DNA from: Paratrimastix pyriformis
Lineage: Eukaryota; Preaxostyla; Paratrimastigidae
Direction of reading: 5' to 3'
DNA length: 64,000 bases
NCBI GenBank assembly: GCA_027972325.1
Contig: JAPMOS010000029.1
Location: 151,001 to 215,000, forward strand
The notes beneath the pieces are model-generated. The model saw nothing but the letters and a program-made list of their open reading frames with translations. It was not told the DNA's origin and did not search any database. The first letter of the stretch is position 1. Every line of letters begins with the position of its first letter. Of the stretch, positions 16,771 through 48,271 are shown in pieces. The translations under genes and the position numbers were made by a program.

Positions 16771-19700
16771 ATGTCCACAGGGTTTCTCCAGTATTTTGGT
16801 CAATTGGCTAGTCCCGATGCTGCTGTTCGGGAGGAGGCTTCCCGGGGCCTGGTTGAGGCATTGGCGGAGTGCCAAAAGCAAAAGACGGTCGCCCCAGCTC
16901 CAGCAGCATCTGATGACGAGGCGGCGTCCTCCCCGATGGATGAGAATCTTGCGTACTGTTTGAAGCGTCTGCTGCGTGGTTTGACGAGTTCCCGTGAGGC
17001 CGCTCGGTGGGGTTTTGCCGCTGTCCTTTCCGAAGTCTGTGTCCCCATCCGTGCGGGCAATGTACACATTCATCCTCATCCCGCGCCCACCAGGTTTTGC
17101 TGCGTTTCGCCGATGCGATTCCGCTGACCCTCTTCCATCGGCGTCTCCACGAAGAGACCGAACCCGAGGACCACCACGTCTGCGATTAAATGCACTCTCC
17201 TCCGCACAATTCCAAATTTTTCTTGCGTCCGTGTACCCCCGGCACTTCAGGATGAGCGCGACTATGGACTGGGCCGCATCTTTGGGTACACGGCCCTGCT
17301 GCACACCAACCGGGTCCAGGCCGTCTATGGGAAGAACCAGCACCACCCGGGTGATAGCCCCGAGGCCTTCCAGCCCTGCCTGGCCGAGATGGTCAAGGAC
17401 CTGGTGGAGTTCTTTGGCAAGAACCCGCTGCGACAGGTGTCGGCCAAGCTGATCATCATGCTGGCGACCCAGGTGCCCGCCGAGACCTTCATTAAGCACA
17501 TTCTGCCGGCTATGACCCCGGTTCTGTCGACCCCCCTCGAGTCGGCCACCCCCGATGCCATGGCCCTGATGCTGGCCCTGCCGACCATTGTCCCGACGGT
17601 CTGGTAGCTGGGACCCCCGGCAATGCTGGCGGGGGGTGGGGATGGGGTGGGGTGGTGGGGTGAGAGGGAGGAGGGTGGGGTGCACACCACATCTCATCGT
17701 GTTCACCATCGTCCCGACGATTGCGAGCTGGTCCCCGGCGTAGTGGGTGTGGGAGAGGAGGGATGGGGGGAAATGCCTCACCACAGCATCTTCTCGTATT
17801 CTCATCCCTCCCCACCCACCTCCCTGCCCCCCCATCCGGCCCCCCAGGCATTCCAGAAGTCCCGCGACCTGCTTGTGTCGACCAACCTGCAGAAGATCGT
17901 GGCGCCCCTGAAGGACACCACTTACTGCCACCCCAAGGTGCACATGGTGTGGGCACTGCTCGTTGAGGCCCTGGTCTGCTCCTCCCTCACCCCTCCACCA
18001 TCCCCTTACCCTCTCCCTCACCCTCCCTACCCCTCACCTCCTCCCACCCCACCCCACCCCACACACACACGCCTCATCACCACGCCATCTACCACGCACG
18101 CCCCGCCCTGCAGGTGCAAGACCGGCCTGGCGGCCACCCCTGCCAAGCCCCCTGACGGAGGAGGCCCTGGCTACCGTCACCGAGTTCATGCACCGCGTGG
18201 TCGAGGGTCCGTGCCTTTGCCTGCCCGTTGTTGTGGTTTTGGGTCAAAGCACCCTGGACACAGCCACCCAGGGAATGTGGTCGAGGGTCCGTGGGCTGCC
18301 CCCGTCCCCCCCCCCCGTCCCCCGTCCCCCGTCCCCCGTCCCCCGTCCCCCGTCCCCCGTCCCCCGTCCCCCGTCCCCCGTCCCCCCGTCCCCCGTCCCC
18401 CCGTCCCCCGTCCCCCGTCCCCCGTCCCCCGTCCCCCGTCCCCCGTCCCCCGTCCCCCGTCCCCCGTCCCCATCATCCCCATCCCATCCCCATCCCCATC
18501 CCCATCCCCATCCCCATCCCCATCCCCATCCCCCCCCCCGTCCCCCATCCCCCCGTCCCCCATCCCCCGTCCCCCATCCCCCCGTCCCCATCATCCCCAT
18601 CCCCATCCCCCCCATCCCCATCCCCATCCCCATCCCCATCCCCATCCCCATCCCCATCCCCATCCATCCCCATCATCCCCATCCCCATCCATCCCCATCA
18701 TCCCCCATCCCCATCATCCCCATCCCCCCCCCCCCCCCCCATCCCCTCCCCATCACGGTATTGTCAGTCTCTCTTGTTGATCCGCCCACCCGATTCGCCC
18801 TCTTCGGGCAAGAACCAAGACTCGCCAATCATCAACCTCGCCCTCATCTTCCCCTGTCCCATCCCCCCCCCCCCCCCACTCCCCACTCCCCACCCCGCTG
18901 CCCCCCTGTCCCATCCCCACGGCCTCAGGTCTTCTGAGCTCGTCGCCCCAGCGGAAGTACCTCGCACTCCACGTCGCCGGGTTCCTGGCCCACATCCGCC
19001 GTCTGTCATCCTCACTCCCCCGCCCCCCGCTGTCATCCTCACCCCCCGCTGTCATCCTCACCCCCCGCTGTCATCCTCACCCCCGCTGTCATCCTCACCC
19101 CCCGCTGTCATCCTCACCCCCCGTCCCGCTGTCATCCTGGCCCCACACATCCGCCGTCTGTCATCCTCACCCCCCGCTGTCATCACCCCCCCCGCTGTCA
19201 TCACCCCCCGCTGTCATCACCCCCCGCTGTCATCACCCCCCGCTGTCATCATCCCCCTGGTCATCCTCTCCCCTGTCTCACCCCCCACCCTCCACCCCAC
19301 CGCAGCTGAGCTTGTGAGTGTCTTCCTGCCGGACAGCCTGCTTGATGTGGTCATCCCGGCCTTCTACCGCGAGTCTGAGTTCCTCTACCCGCCCACCGCC
19401 ACCCTGGTCCGCATGACATCCGTCGCCCCCATCTCCATACCCACCTCCATCTCACCCTCCCTGGTCCGCATGACATATATCGCCCCCATCTCCATCTCCA
19501 TACCCACCTCCATCTCACCCTCCCTGGTCCGCATGACATATATCGCCCCCATCTCCATCTCCATACCCACCTCCATCTCACCCTCCCTGGTCCGCATGAC
19601 ATATATCGCCCCCATCTCCATCTCCATACCCACCTCCATCTCACCCTCCCTGGTCCGCATGACATATATCCATCCCCATCTCCATCTCCATACCCACCTC

Positions 19701-46900: not shown

Positions 46901-48271
46901 ACAGAAAGACACACAGAGAGACACAGAAAGACACACAGAGACACAGAAAGACACACAGAGAGACACAGAGAGAGACACAGAGAGAGACACACAGAGACAC
47001 AGAGTGACACCCCACCTACCGACCTTGGGCTTGAACTCCATGGCGAACTGGAGGTGGGTCTGGGGGCAGGTGATGGTCACATCACCGCACATCTCCATGC
47101 ACATCTTGCCGATGATGATCCCGCGCACGTAGGCCGAGGGGAAGTTGCAGATGTACTGCTCGTTGCGGTTGATCATGTACACCGTGCCCGAGCCCTCCAT
47201 CAGGGCCGCCGCGCTATTGCCCAGGAACTTCGACTTGGTGTAGCATTGACCTGAGTCGGGGCGGGTTGGGGTGGGTGTGGTGCCAGCCGGGAAGAAGGAC
47301 GATGTTGAATTGTGGGGAGTGGGGGGACGTGGGAATGCGTGTCTTGATTGTGAACGAGCAAGAACGGGGGCGGGCGGGTTGAAGGGTGTGGACAAGACGA
47401 GACACGGCGAGTCGGGTGGCTATCCCCCCGGATGGGGCGGCACAGACCGTTAATCACAAAGCCGGACTTGCGGTTGTCGAAATAGAAGGCCGTCACTGGG
47501 GGGTGGTGCGACACCTGCTCGGCGATGTAGGTGGTGGTCGAGTTGAGGTCCGGCCGGGTGGCGTACCGGTGGTCCCAGTGGCACCGGAAGATCTCACCCA
47601 GGACGGGGTTATACGGCTTCTTGACACCCTTGGGCCGGATGTGGAACCCAGAGACGTACCTGGGCAATTCATGTGTGCGCGTGAGCCAGTGGGACGAGAA
47701 AAAAAGAGTGGGTCACAGACCACTTGCACATCTCGATCATGCGCTGAATGGGATCTTCGGTGTTAATGGCACTAAGAAGGGCAGAAAAAGGCGAATGGTG
47801 AGCGAGGTGTGAACCCTTGCGAAAAATGGCTGACCGCAGAAGGAAGTCAGCATGGGTCAGGAAATCGGTGTACCGCTCCAGCAGAGACCGGGGCTCCAGA
47901 ACGAAAGTGGGCACTGCCGAAGCAATAGAAGGGCAGGAGGGCAAAGAGGAAGGACGAGAACAGCAGATCGGAATGACCGATTGGAACCAAAAAACAAGAA
48001 GCAACAGACGAGTGACCCGAGTGAGATCCATGCCAACTGTCAACTGCTTCATGAGACCCAACAAAATCGACTGGGGCTTCTCGTCAATGACCTCCTCCTG
48101 CTCGGAAGCCTGAGGATCCGGGTCGGGGGTGGCACCAGGGGGAGGAATAAGCGATTCATCAGGGGGAGGAACAACGAGGCCACCCTCGGAGGCGGGAGTG
48201 GTGGAAACAGGTGTGGAGGGCTCCGAGGCAGGGACTGGAGTGGCCGTTGCGGCTGTGGATTGAGGATCCAT
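43931..48271 (-). CDS. Oxysterol-binding-protein-related lipid transfer protein, 9 exons
   Basis: Carries the OSBP-related domain (ORP) that swaps sterols and phosphoinositides between membranes. Exons: 48010-48271, 47835-47913, 47721-47771, 47448-47659, 47024-47250, 46279-46434, 45547-45641, 44588-44773, 43931-44171; about 502 residues, phases consistent. After a Pro/Thr-rich 70-residue lead come [34 protein letters not shown], the signature [13 protein letters not shown], then [17 protein letters not shown] and [13 protein letters not shown]. No PH domain or FFAT motif is seen, so it is a short-type ORP. The last exon is an Ala/Pro-rich tail whose end is the least certain. Introns 5-8 hold repeated copies of flanking exon ends. 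Confidence 0.95.
44245..44600 (-). repeat. Four donor copies after ORP exon 8
   Basis: The exon end and donor (minus: ttcaaccagatcaa|gtccgtg) occur at about 44587 (true), 44524, 44422 and 44256. Copies 2-4 carry small changes (cagctcaagtccgtg; aagtccgaatc). Spacers are cagccacgcagccacg and ccagttccccagttcc repeats. Confidence 0.92.
44925..44962 (-). repeat. Copy of ORP exon 8 acceptor and start
   Basis: On the minus strand ctacgtag-like acceptor followed by ctctggacccacgtcacccg repeats the true acceptor region at 44774 (cagcctgtggacccacgtca). Confidence 0.88.
45008..45423. repeat. 14-bp minisatellite, about 29 near-perfect copies
   Basis: Unit ggcaggtgatgatt repeated with almost no variation through ORP intron 7. 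Confidence 0.97.
45625..45810 (-). repeat. Copy of ORP exon 7 acceptor and start
   Basis: The true acceptor region (plus strand gaagaggacttgggacgggg actgtgag) is at 45622-45650; a copy (gaagaggacttgggacgggg attgtgg) lies at about 45768-45795. Atgctgatgatg units separate them. Confidence 0.88.
46030..46300 (-). repeat. Four donor copies after ORP exon 6
   Basis: On the plus strand the block cagcccgaccttggggatgt (minus: atccccaag|gtcgggctg) occurs with donors near 46278 (true), 46180, 46115 and 46042. Catgacacatgac repeats lie between. Confidence 0.92.
46490..46580. repeat. (TGGA)n / TGGAATGGA repeat
   Basis: About 85 bp in ORP intron 5. Confidence 0.95.
46765..47060 (-). repeat. Three donor copies after ORP exon 5
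   Basis: Plus-strand block ccgaccttgggcttgaactc catggcgaac (minus: ...atggagttcaagcccaag|gtcgg) at donors 47023 (true), about 46845 and 46776. (AGAGACAC)n repeats separate them. Confidence 0.94.

Follow-up and report, generated by a model that had tools for sequence, protein, structure and literature searches.

Exon-end copies in repeat-rich introns and an apparent genome-wide recoding of the U1:donor pairing in Paratrimastix pyriformis

The window and its genes

The window analysed here is a 64-kb stretch of the Paratrimastix pyriformis genome, corresponding to bases 151001-215000 of contig C212 in an assembly of 56 Mb and 495 contigs. It carries a Pol5 gene on the plus strand and an ORP gene on the minus strand, and a preliminary description of this DNA had reported that the ends of their exons, together with the splice sites, recur within the introns. 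The identities that it gave to the two genes agree with the family matches, DNA_pol_phi for Pol5 and Oxysterol_BP for ORP. The base composition of the window is GC-rich, simple and tandem repeats are abundant, and the number of introns per predicted gene is high. In this study, we describe the exon-end copies, the donor sites of these introns, and the genes for the small nuclear RNAs (snRNAs) that would read them. The copies probably reflect no special process and are ordinary in mechanism, while the donors and the U1 snRNA genes, compared at the level of sequence, look like a natural, genome-wide recoding of the U1:donor pairing. It is this recoding, rather than the exon-end copies, that we consider the result worth following.

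Genes were predicted with a hidden Markov gene finder built for this work, which requires GT and AG at the intron ends. The copy tests covered 264 kb, namely the 64-kb window and an independent 200 kb (C441:200001-400000, hereafter the C441 region). A strict copy rule demanded 20 matches in 26 bases, and a loose rule followed the 15-35 nt of the preliminary description, whose exon numbering differs from that used here. Low-complexity words were excluded from every copy count.

Exon-end copies in the introns of Pol5 and ORP

The preliminary description had counted at least ten introns with junction copies. By the loose rule, the copies lie at the positions claimed, in the following 12 introns of Pol5 and ORP.

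17599..17847, plus strand: Pol5 intron; weak exon-end copy at 17705 (16/21), donor not kept
18207..18928, plus strand: Pol5 intron, donor GTCCGT; exon end and donor in a 17-nt exact copy near 18277
19001..19305, plus strand: Pol5 intron, donor GTCTGT; junction copy at 19142 (26/29)
19407..20086, plus strand: Pol5 intron; donor-junction copies at 19455, 19518, 19581, 19644 and 19708, acceptor-junction copy at 20007 (23/30)
20174..20647, plus strand: Pol5 intron, donor GTCTGT; donor-junction copies at 20289 and 20428
24959..25360, plus strand: Pol5 intron, donor GTCCGC; one copy at 25065 and another, without the donor, at 25183
25764..26287, plus strand: Pol5 intron, donor GTTCGT; donor copied at 25862 and 26008, acceptor at 26202
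27509..27884, plus strand: Pol5 intron, donor GTCCGT; copied in part at 27560 (19/25) and 27592 (16/25)
46435..47023, minus strand: ORP intron, donor GTCGGT; two exact 28-nt donor-junction copies; three gene-finder pieces merged by hand
45642..46278, minus strand: ORP intron, donor GTCGGG; three donor-junction copies
44774..45546, minus strand: ORP intron, donor GTCTGC; single acceptor-junction copy near 44949 (25/27)
44172..44587, minus strand: ORP intron, donor GTCCGT; three donor-junction copies; start corrected by hand

The start of the Pol5 intron at 19407..20086 was also assigned by hand; the gene finder had called several of its 63-nt units coding. By the strict rule, nine Pol5 and ORP introns carry junction copies after the merging of mis-split gene models. 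The copies had been said to keep the splice site, and the donor hexamer is indeed often kept, but it is lost at 17705 and in the second copy of the intron at 24959-25360.

Among predicted introns that measure at least 80 nt and offer a usable word, a donor-junction copy is present in 11 of 400 and an acceptor-junction copy in 8 of 393. When the words were swapped between introns, the corresponding counts were 2 of 7959 and 0 of 7874, and exon-internal words were copied in 1 of 307 and 0 of 314 cases. Since both controls are far lower, the junction copies are not chance similarity.

Could the copies have arisen in the assembly? Arrays of tandem repeats are difficult to assemble, and the one with 63-nt units at 19455-19708, whose copies are identical, is the least safe in this respect. 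However, the copies of one junction, as judged by eye, show substitutions, differing flanks and unequal spacings, unlike misjoined identical units, and we regard an assembly artefact as the least probable of the explanations weighed in this study.

Are the copies special to the junctions?

The preliminary description interpreted the copies as the product of a junction-spanning duplication. If duplication were aimed at the splice junctions, or its products preferentially kept there, arrays of competing splice sites would be built, with longer introns or repeat-coding isoforms as the outcome. We compared the junctions with interior words, taken at three random places in each intron of at least 150 nt, a count that depends less on the gene models. 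Four predicted introns upstream of Pol5 were left out of the copy-rate and placement tests. Counting any copy within 700 nt, we found that in Pol5 and ORP together 10 of 34 donors (29%; among the ten, three come from a single real intron that the gene finder had cut up), 5 of 33 acceptors and 11 of 42 interior words (26%) are copied. The C441 region has copies of 8 of 401 donors, 10 of 396 acceptors and 30 of 438 interior words, and the rest of the window of 0 of 87, 0 of 88 and 11 of 114, respectively. The junction words are thus copied about as often as the interior words in Pol5 and ORP, and less often elsewhere. The donor counts of 0 of 87 and 8 of 401 outside these genes also show that the pattern is densest in the two genes chosen for the preliminary description.

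Exon words 44-70 nt upstream of the donors are copied in 3 of 26 cases in Pol5 and ORP, 5 of 300 in the C441 region and 1 of 66 in the rest of the window, and those 44-70 nt downstream of the acceptors in 0 of 26, 1 of 311 and 0 of 65. The exon interiors are not wholly copy-free, and some of these exon-word copies may reflect mis-split models. A position profile of 24-base words, with copies sought within their own intron (introns of at least 150 nt), gives on the donor side 2.7-4.3% for words starting 30-0 nt before the edge, 3-8% for words starting 20-150 nt inside the intron, and less than 1% for words starting at least 50 nt inside the exon. For acceptors, the values are 1.3-2.3% at the junction, 0.7-6.6% in the intron and 0-0.4% in the exon from 20 nt on.

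In the placement test, the repeat pairs that cross a junction were counted and compared with random placement of the pairs within their own intron, after three places in ORP and Pol5 had been merged or re-cut by hand. The numbers below, seen against expected, are to be read with the caveat that pairs within an array are not independent and that Pol5 and ORP were picked for showing the pattern.

Outside Pol5/ORP, main setting: donor 2 against 5.1; acceptor 7 against 5.1
Inside Pol5/ORP, main setting: donor 8 against 1.7 (in 5 of 26 introns); acceptor 1 against 1.7
Outside Pol5/ORP, repeats of at least 22 nt: donor 1 against 3.3; acceptor 7 against 3.3
Inside Pol5/ORP, repeats of at least 22 nt: donor 6 against 1.3; acceptor 1 against 1.3
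Outside Pol5/ORP, stricter complexity: donor 1 against 2.0; acceptor 2 against 2.0
Inside Pol5/ORP, stricter complexity: donor 6 against 0.8; acceptor 0 against 0.8

An earlier run on uncorrected models (339 introns; donor 6 against 5.4, acceptor 9 against 6.4) has since been superseded. These results are mostly, not wholly, chance-like. The eight donor-crossing pairs inside Pol5 and ORP and the seven acceptor-crossing pairs of at least 22 nt outside them are what a junction-aimed process would produce, and these excesses cannot be fully dismissed; the donor crossings outside the chosen genes, in contrast, fall below expectation.

The frame of the copies points the same way as the interior words. 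Of the copied donors, 3 of 15 in Pol5 and ORP outside the 63-nt array lie at an offset that keeps the frame, as do 3 of 5 in the C441 region, together 6 of 20, which is near one third. The repeat-coding isoforms envisaged earlier are unsupported. The 63-nt array at 19407-19760 departs from this: it is mostly open in frame and is the best single candidate for such an isoform. By eye, the copies look better conserved than their flanks, as junction-aimed duplication would have it; the exon is constrained, however, and the spacers are simple repeats, so we do not count this conservation as a sign of function.

Moreover, the ends of coding sequences are copied past stop codons. The copy in Pol5 is as follows.

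29594..29684, plus strand: copy of the Pol5 coding sequence 29242-29333 (95.7% identity), beyond the stop codon and without a splice site

A second coding 3′ end, at 32082-32164, recurs beyond its stop codon at 32588-32670 (86.7%). The two copied ends measure 92 and 83 nt, and a post-stop copy of at least 20 nt of the coding 3′ end is present in 3 of the 47 predicted genes surveyed. Because interior words are copied about equally often in Pol5 and ORP and coding ends are copied past stops, we favour plain local duplication that sometimes reaches into exons, and we consider duplication aimed at the junctions unlikely. What stands of the earlier interpretation is a local duplication across the junction; neither a junction-specific process nor a new class of intron is supported, with interior words copied at 26% against 29% for donors. 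For intron sequences dispersed over many genes (introners or transposon-made introns), the single 401-base probe used matched its own neighbourhood only. The general caution is that repeat-rich introns by themselves yield junction copies.

A donor code of GTCYGY

The preliminary description was silent on the non-canonical donors. With a finder started without any donor preference beyond GT, the consensus reached over 530 introns is GTC(C/T)G(T/C), preceded by an exonic G, with C in 85% at +3, C in 47% and T in 42% at +4, and G in 85% at +5. A finder started from GTAAGT-type weights arrives at the same consensus, with no GTRAG among 527 introns. The 531 predicted donors of the window and the C441 region, on which the counts below are based, have C at +3 in 454 cases and T in 53; 316 of them read GTCYGY and none reads GTRAG. 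The acceptors consist of a C-rich tract ending in CAG.

Homology provides a check on these predictions. We took introns within spliced-protein alignments to Rab-2B, MCM6 and the 5′-3′ exoribonuclease XRN2, of which 28 fall in aligned stretches; we excluded by eye four that lie at or close to gaps and kept 24, in three genes of the window.

59504..60359, plus strand: first four introns of a Rab2-like gene, donors GTCTCA, GTCAGT, GTCTGT and GTCTGC; alignment to Rab-2B gap-free at these junctions
32787..40953, minus strand: MCM6 gene (predicted model); 12 of 14 aligned introns gap-free at the junction, with C at +3 in nine and T in three
67..6530, minus strand: XRN2-like 5′-3′ exoribonuclease gene (predicted model); eight of ten aligned introns gap-free at the junction, all GTC

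All 24 introns have GT-AG ends, at junctions that homology places to within a few residues. Their donors have C at +3 in 21 cases and T in three, and GTRAG is absent from -12 to +14 nt around them. The donor of an intron in the EF1A gene, GTCTGT, is of the same kind. Annotation of this genome by gene finders trained on GTRAGT would probably contain errors.

A trade-off between donor positions was sought, and none was clearly seen; a search for a branch-point motif gave no clear word beyond C-rich tracts. The U12-type donor is RTATCCTT, and GTATCC is outside the 30 commonest hexamers of the 531 donors, where the GT-only finder is blind to AT-AC introns and U11 and U12 were not searched.

The U1 snRNA genes match the donors

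What reads such a donor? The donor-reading end of U1 is among the most constant RNA words of eukaryotes, because a change in it should break many introns at once. The Rfam U1 model has eight full-length matches genome-wide. All eight loci begin with AUACAGACC, where the Rfam consensus has AUACUUACC, and over a longer stretch all eight read ATACAGACCTTG, as compared to the consensus AUACUUACCUGG; the canonical ACUUACC end is present in none of them. A pattern search with the two differing bases unspecified and up to two mismatches returned the same eight loci and none further.

The changed bases are positions 5 and 6, A and G in place of U and U, which face donor positions +4 and +3. The altered end, ACAGACC, is complementary to (CAAG)GUCUGU. 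From -3 to +6, the altered U1 forms more Watson-Crick matches than the canonical one with 374 of the 531 donors, equally many with 145 and fewer with 12, and the predicted duplex energy is lower with the altered U1 for 446 of the 531 (means -7.79 and -4.67).

The eight matches could instead be pseudogenes or a minor variant, with the main introns served by a canonical U1 that escaped the search, or by recognition through protein only. The scores of 50.8-60.2 bits, below the Rfam cut-off of 69.5, would suit this explanation, as would the near-identical copies on scattered contigs; moreover, scoring covered only 41 of 992 first-look candidates and may have passed over a further U1. Nevertheless, the eight copies share an identical 24-nt 5′ end despite differing flanks, no other U1 match was reported at E values up to 0.001, and the shared end is complementary to the donors of this very genome. 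We therefore hold the pseudogene explanation to be very unlikely.

A TTCATAC-like stretch, recognised by eye, lies at or just before the RNA start in both the U1 and the U2 genes (L004-L011 and L052), and is perhaps a start-site element.

Other parts of the spliceosome

The canonical ACAGAGA of U6 is present in 4 of 4 loci. The single U2 locus read, of 10 matches, has GTGTAGTA, which contains GUAGUA, and the single U5 locus read, of seven matches, has GCCTTTTAC, with the loop GCCUUUUAC. U6, and the U2 and U5 loci read, thus look canonical. The ACAGA of U6 is complementary to the donor GUCUGU from +2 to +6, and the new ACAGA of U1 is the same word as this U6 box. A zf-U1 match (E 2.4e-8, in a search in which 1 of 14 control genomes matched too) suggests U1-C. 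The sole PF05971 match in the genome, at C332:38824-39153, contains the motif CMCNPPF, which we take to be that of METTL16. Loss of METTL16, which the link known from yeasts would suggest, is not borne out, since a METTL16-type gene is present.

How could the donors and U1 have changed together?

We propose that the exon-end copies arise by ordinary local duplication, and that, within a U2-type system, a shift of the donor code from GURAGU to GUCYGY has been accompanied by a compensating change of U1. We assign this reading a probability of roughly 0.86.

Copies: Duplications and slippage in the minisatellite-rich introns would leave the exon-end copies as remnants. A duplicated unit that reaches up to about 40 nt into the exon would place the exon end with the donor, or the acceptor with the exon start, inside the intron. 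Such a junction copy would do little harm within the intron, because the original junction is still at the intron edge, and units wholly within exons would be removed by selection.

Recoding: If the U1 genes are expressed and pair with the donors, A and G at U1 positions 5 and 6 would compensate for the bases at donor +4 and +3, and U1 ACAGACC would pair with GGUCUGU. As the 5′ end of U1 shares the five letters ACAGA with U6, U1 and then U6 could read the same donor stretch. We lean towards the view that the whole donor set moved by way of a double change in U1 (UU to AG), and that U1 and U6 would now read the same donor bases in turn, so that the first recognition of the donor and its hand-over would rely on a single code.

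Class: Judged by their GT-AG ends, the ACAGAGA of U6, the GUAGUA of U2, the U5 loop GCCUUUUAC and the U1-donor complementarity, the introns are U2-type. ACUUACC is found in none of the 8 U1 loci and GURAG in none of the 531 donors, but these are the usual sequence of the class and not its definition.

Several observations weigh against this proposal. The donors have C at +4 in 246 cases as compared to T in 224, and C at +6 in 200, of the 531. Simple pairing leaves this C unexplained, since the altered U1 would prefer U at both positions; as a guess, the C at +4 might be read through a modified A5 of U1 (for example inosine) or through tolerated A-C mismatches. The METTL16-type gene persists in a genome whose donors mostly have C or U at +4, in contrast to the link between +4 and METTL16 in yeasts (PMC10581693). 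To these must be added the sub-cut-off scores and the partial candidate scoring of the U1 search, the donor-crossing excess in Pol5 and ORP at all three placement settings, and the acceptor-crossing excess elsewhere for repeats of at least 22 nt.

The change could also have been led by U6: the donors would have drifted to GUCYGY for better pairing with U6, and U1 would have followed later, its pairing now being secondary. The canonical ACAGAGA of U6 and its complementarity to GUCUGU at +2 to +6 are consistent with such a drift, and Entamoeba is reported to splice without a recognised U1 snRNA (PMC13292270). However, a matching change in all eight U1 genes found is not likely if U1 pairing is unimportant, and the order of events is unreadable from one genome. 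We consider a lead by U6 possible but rather doubtful, and retain the compensating change in U1 as the better explanation.

The joint change of a U1 word and its donors amounts to a natural experiment in compensatory mutation. It opens to test the way in which such a change is crossed, the question of whether the pairing of U6 or of U1 leads, and the need for the U1 pseudouridines 5 and 6 and for METTL16. We found no report of GUCYGY donors with a changed U1 in the literature searched, which excludes most subscription journals and is thus no proof of novelty; the recoding may already have been described by others.

Further features of the window and the genome

At 30587-31559 of the window, on the minus strand, lies a stretch that, by eye, resembles part of a Tc1/mariner-type transposase. 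G runs of 25 to 42 occur at 12282-12306, 12495-12536 and 12692-12716. The EF1A gene (C461:38350-39850) is without the 12-residue insertion of opisthokonts, a marker whose absence speaks against an animal or fungal origin. Two ribosomal DNA pieces, C317:1612-1767 and C290:15909-16063, have slightly different 5.8S sequences and long N runs, and the C290 piece looks rearranged by eye.

Comparison with known systems

The introns described here share with canonical U2-type introns the GT-AG ends, the C-rich tract with CAG, the ACAGAGA of U6, the GUAGUA of U2, the U5 loop GCCUUUUAC and the complementarity between U1 and donor. They differ from them (U1 ACUUACC, donor GURAGU) in having C at donor +3 and Y at +4, where R and A are usual, and AG in place of UU at U1 positions 5 and 6.

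The donor of Entamoeba is the pyrimidine-rich GUUUGU. Entamoeba and the present genome both deviate in U1, which is reported absent in the former (PMC13292270), while here eight U1 genes match the donor.

With respect to the copies, tandem duplication near introns has created new introns in Drosophila (PMC2891723). The likeness is that exonic sequence containing splice-like sites is duplicated locally in tandem; in contrast, the copies here lie inside existing introns, and their rate is about that of the background.

The U1 donor-reading ends are conserved in two nucleomorphs (PMC6461891), and a survey of yeasts reports ACUUACC without variation among U1 candidates from 227 of 230 yeasts and from 9 of 10 outgroups, with ACAGA likewise invariant (PMC10581693). 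Some species of Saccharomycotina have +4U donors, and a change of U1 position 5 to A was named as a possible compensation; such a compensating change was sought in the yeasts and was not found there, and the +4 preference was linked to METTL16 (PMC10581693). The donors of these species, like those here, have moved off +4A. In the present genome, however, two positions of U1 are changed, and the METTL16-type gene has been kept.

The diplonemid S. specki has an additional U1 with a C-rich 5′ end beside a U1 with the conserved end (PMC12621601), and is thus, like the present genome, a natural case of a U1 with an altered donor-reading end. In contrast to S. specki, every U1 found here is changed, and the donor set has moved with it.

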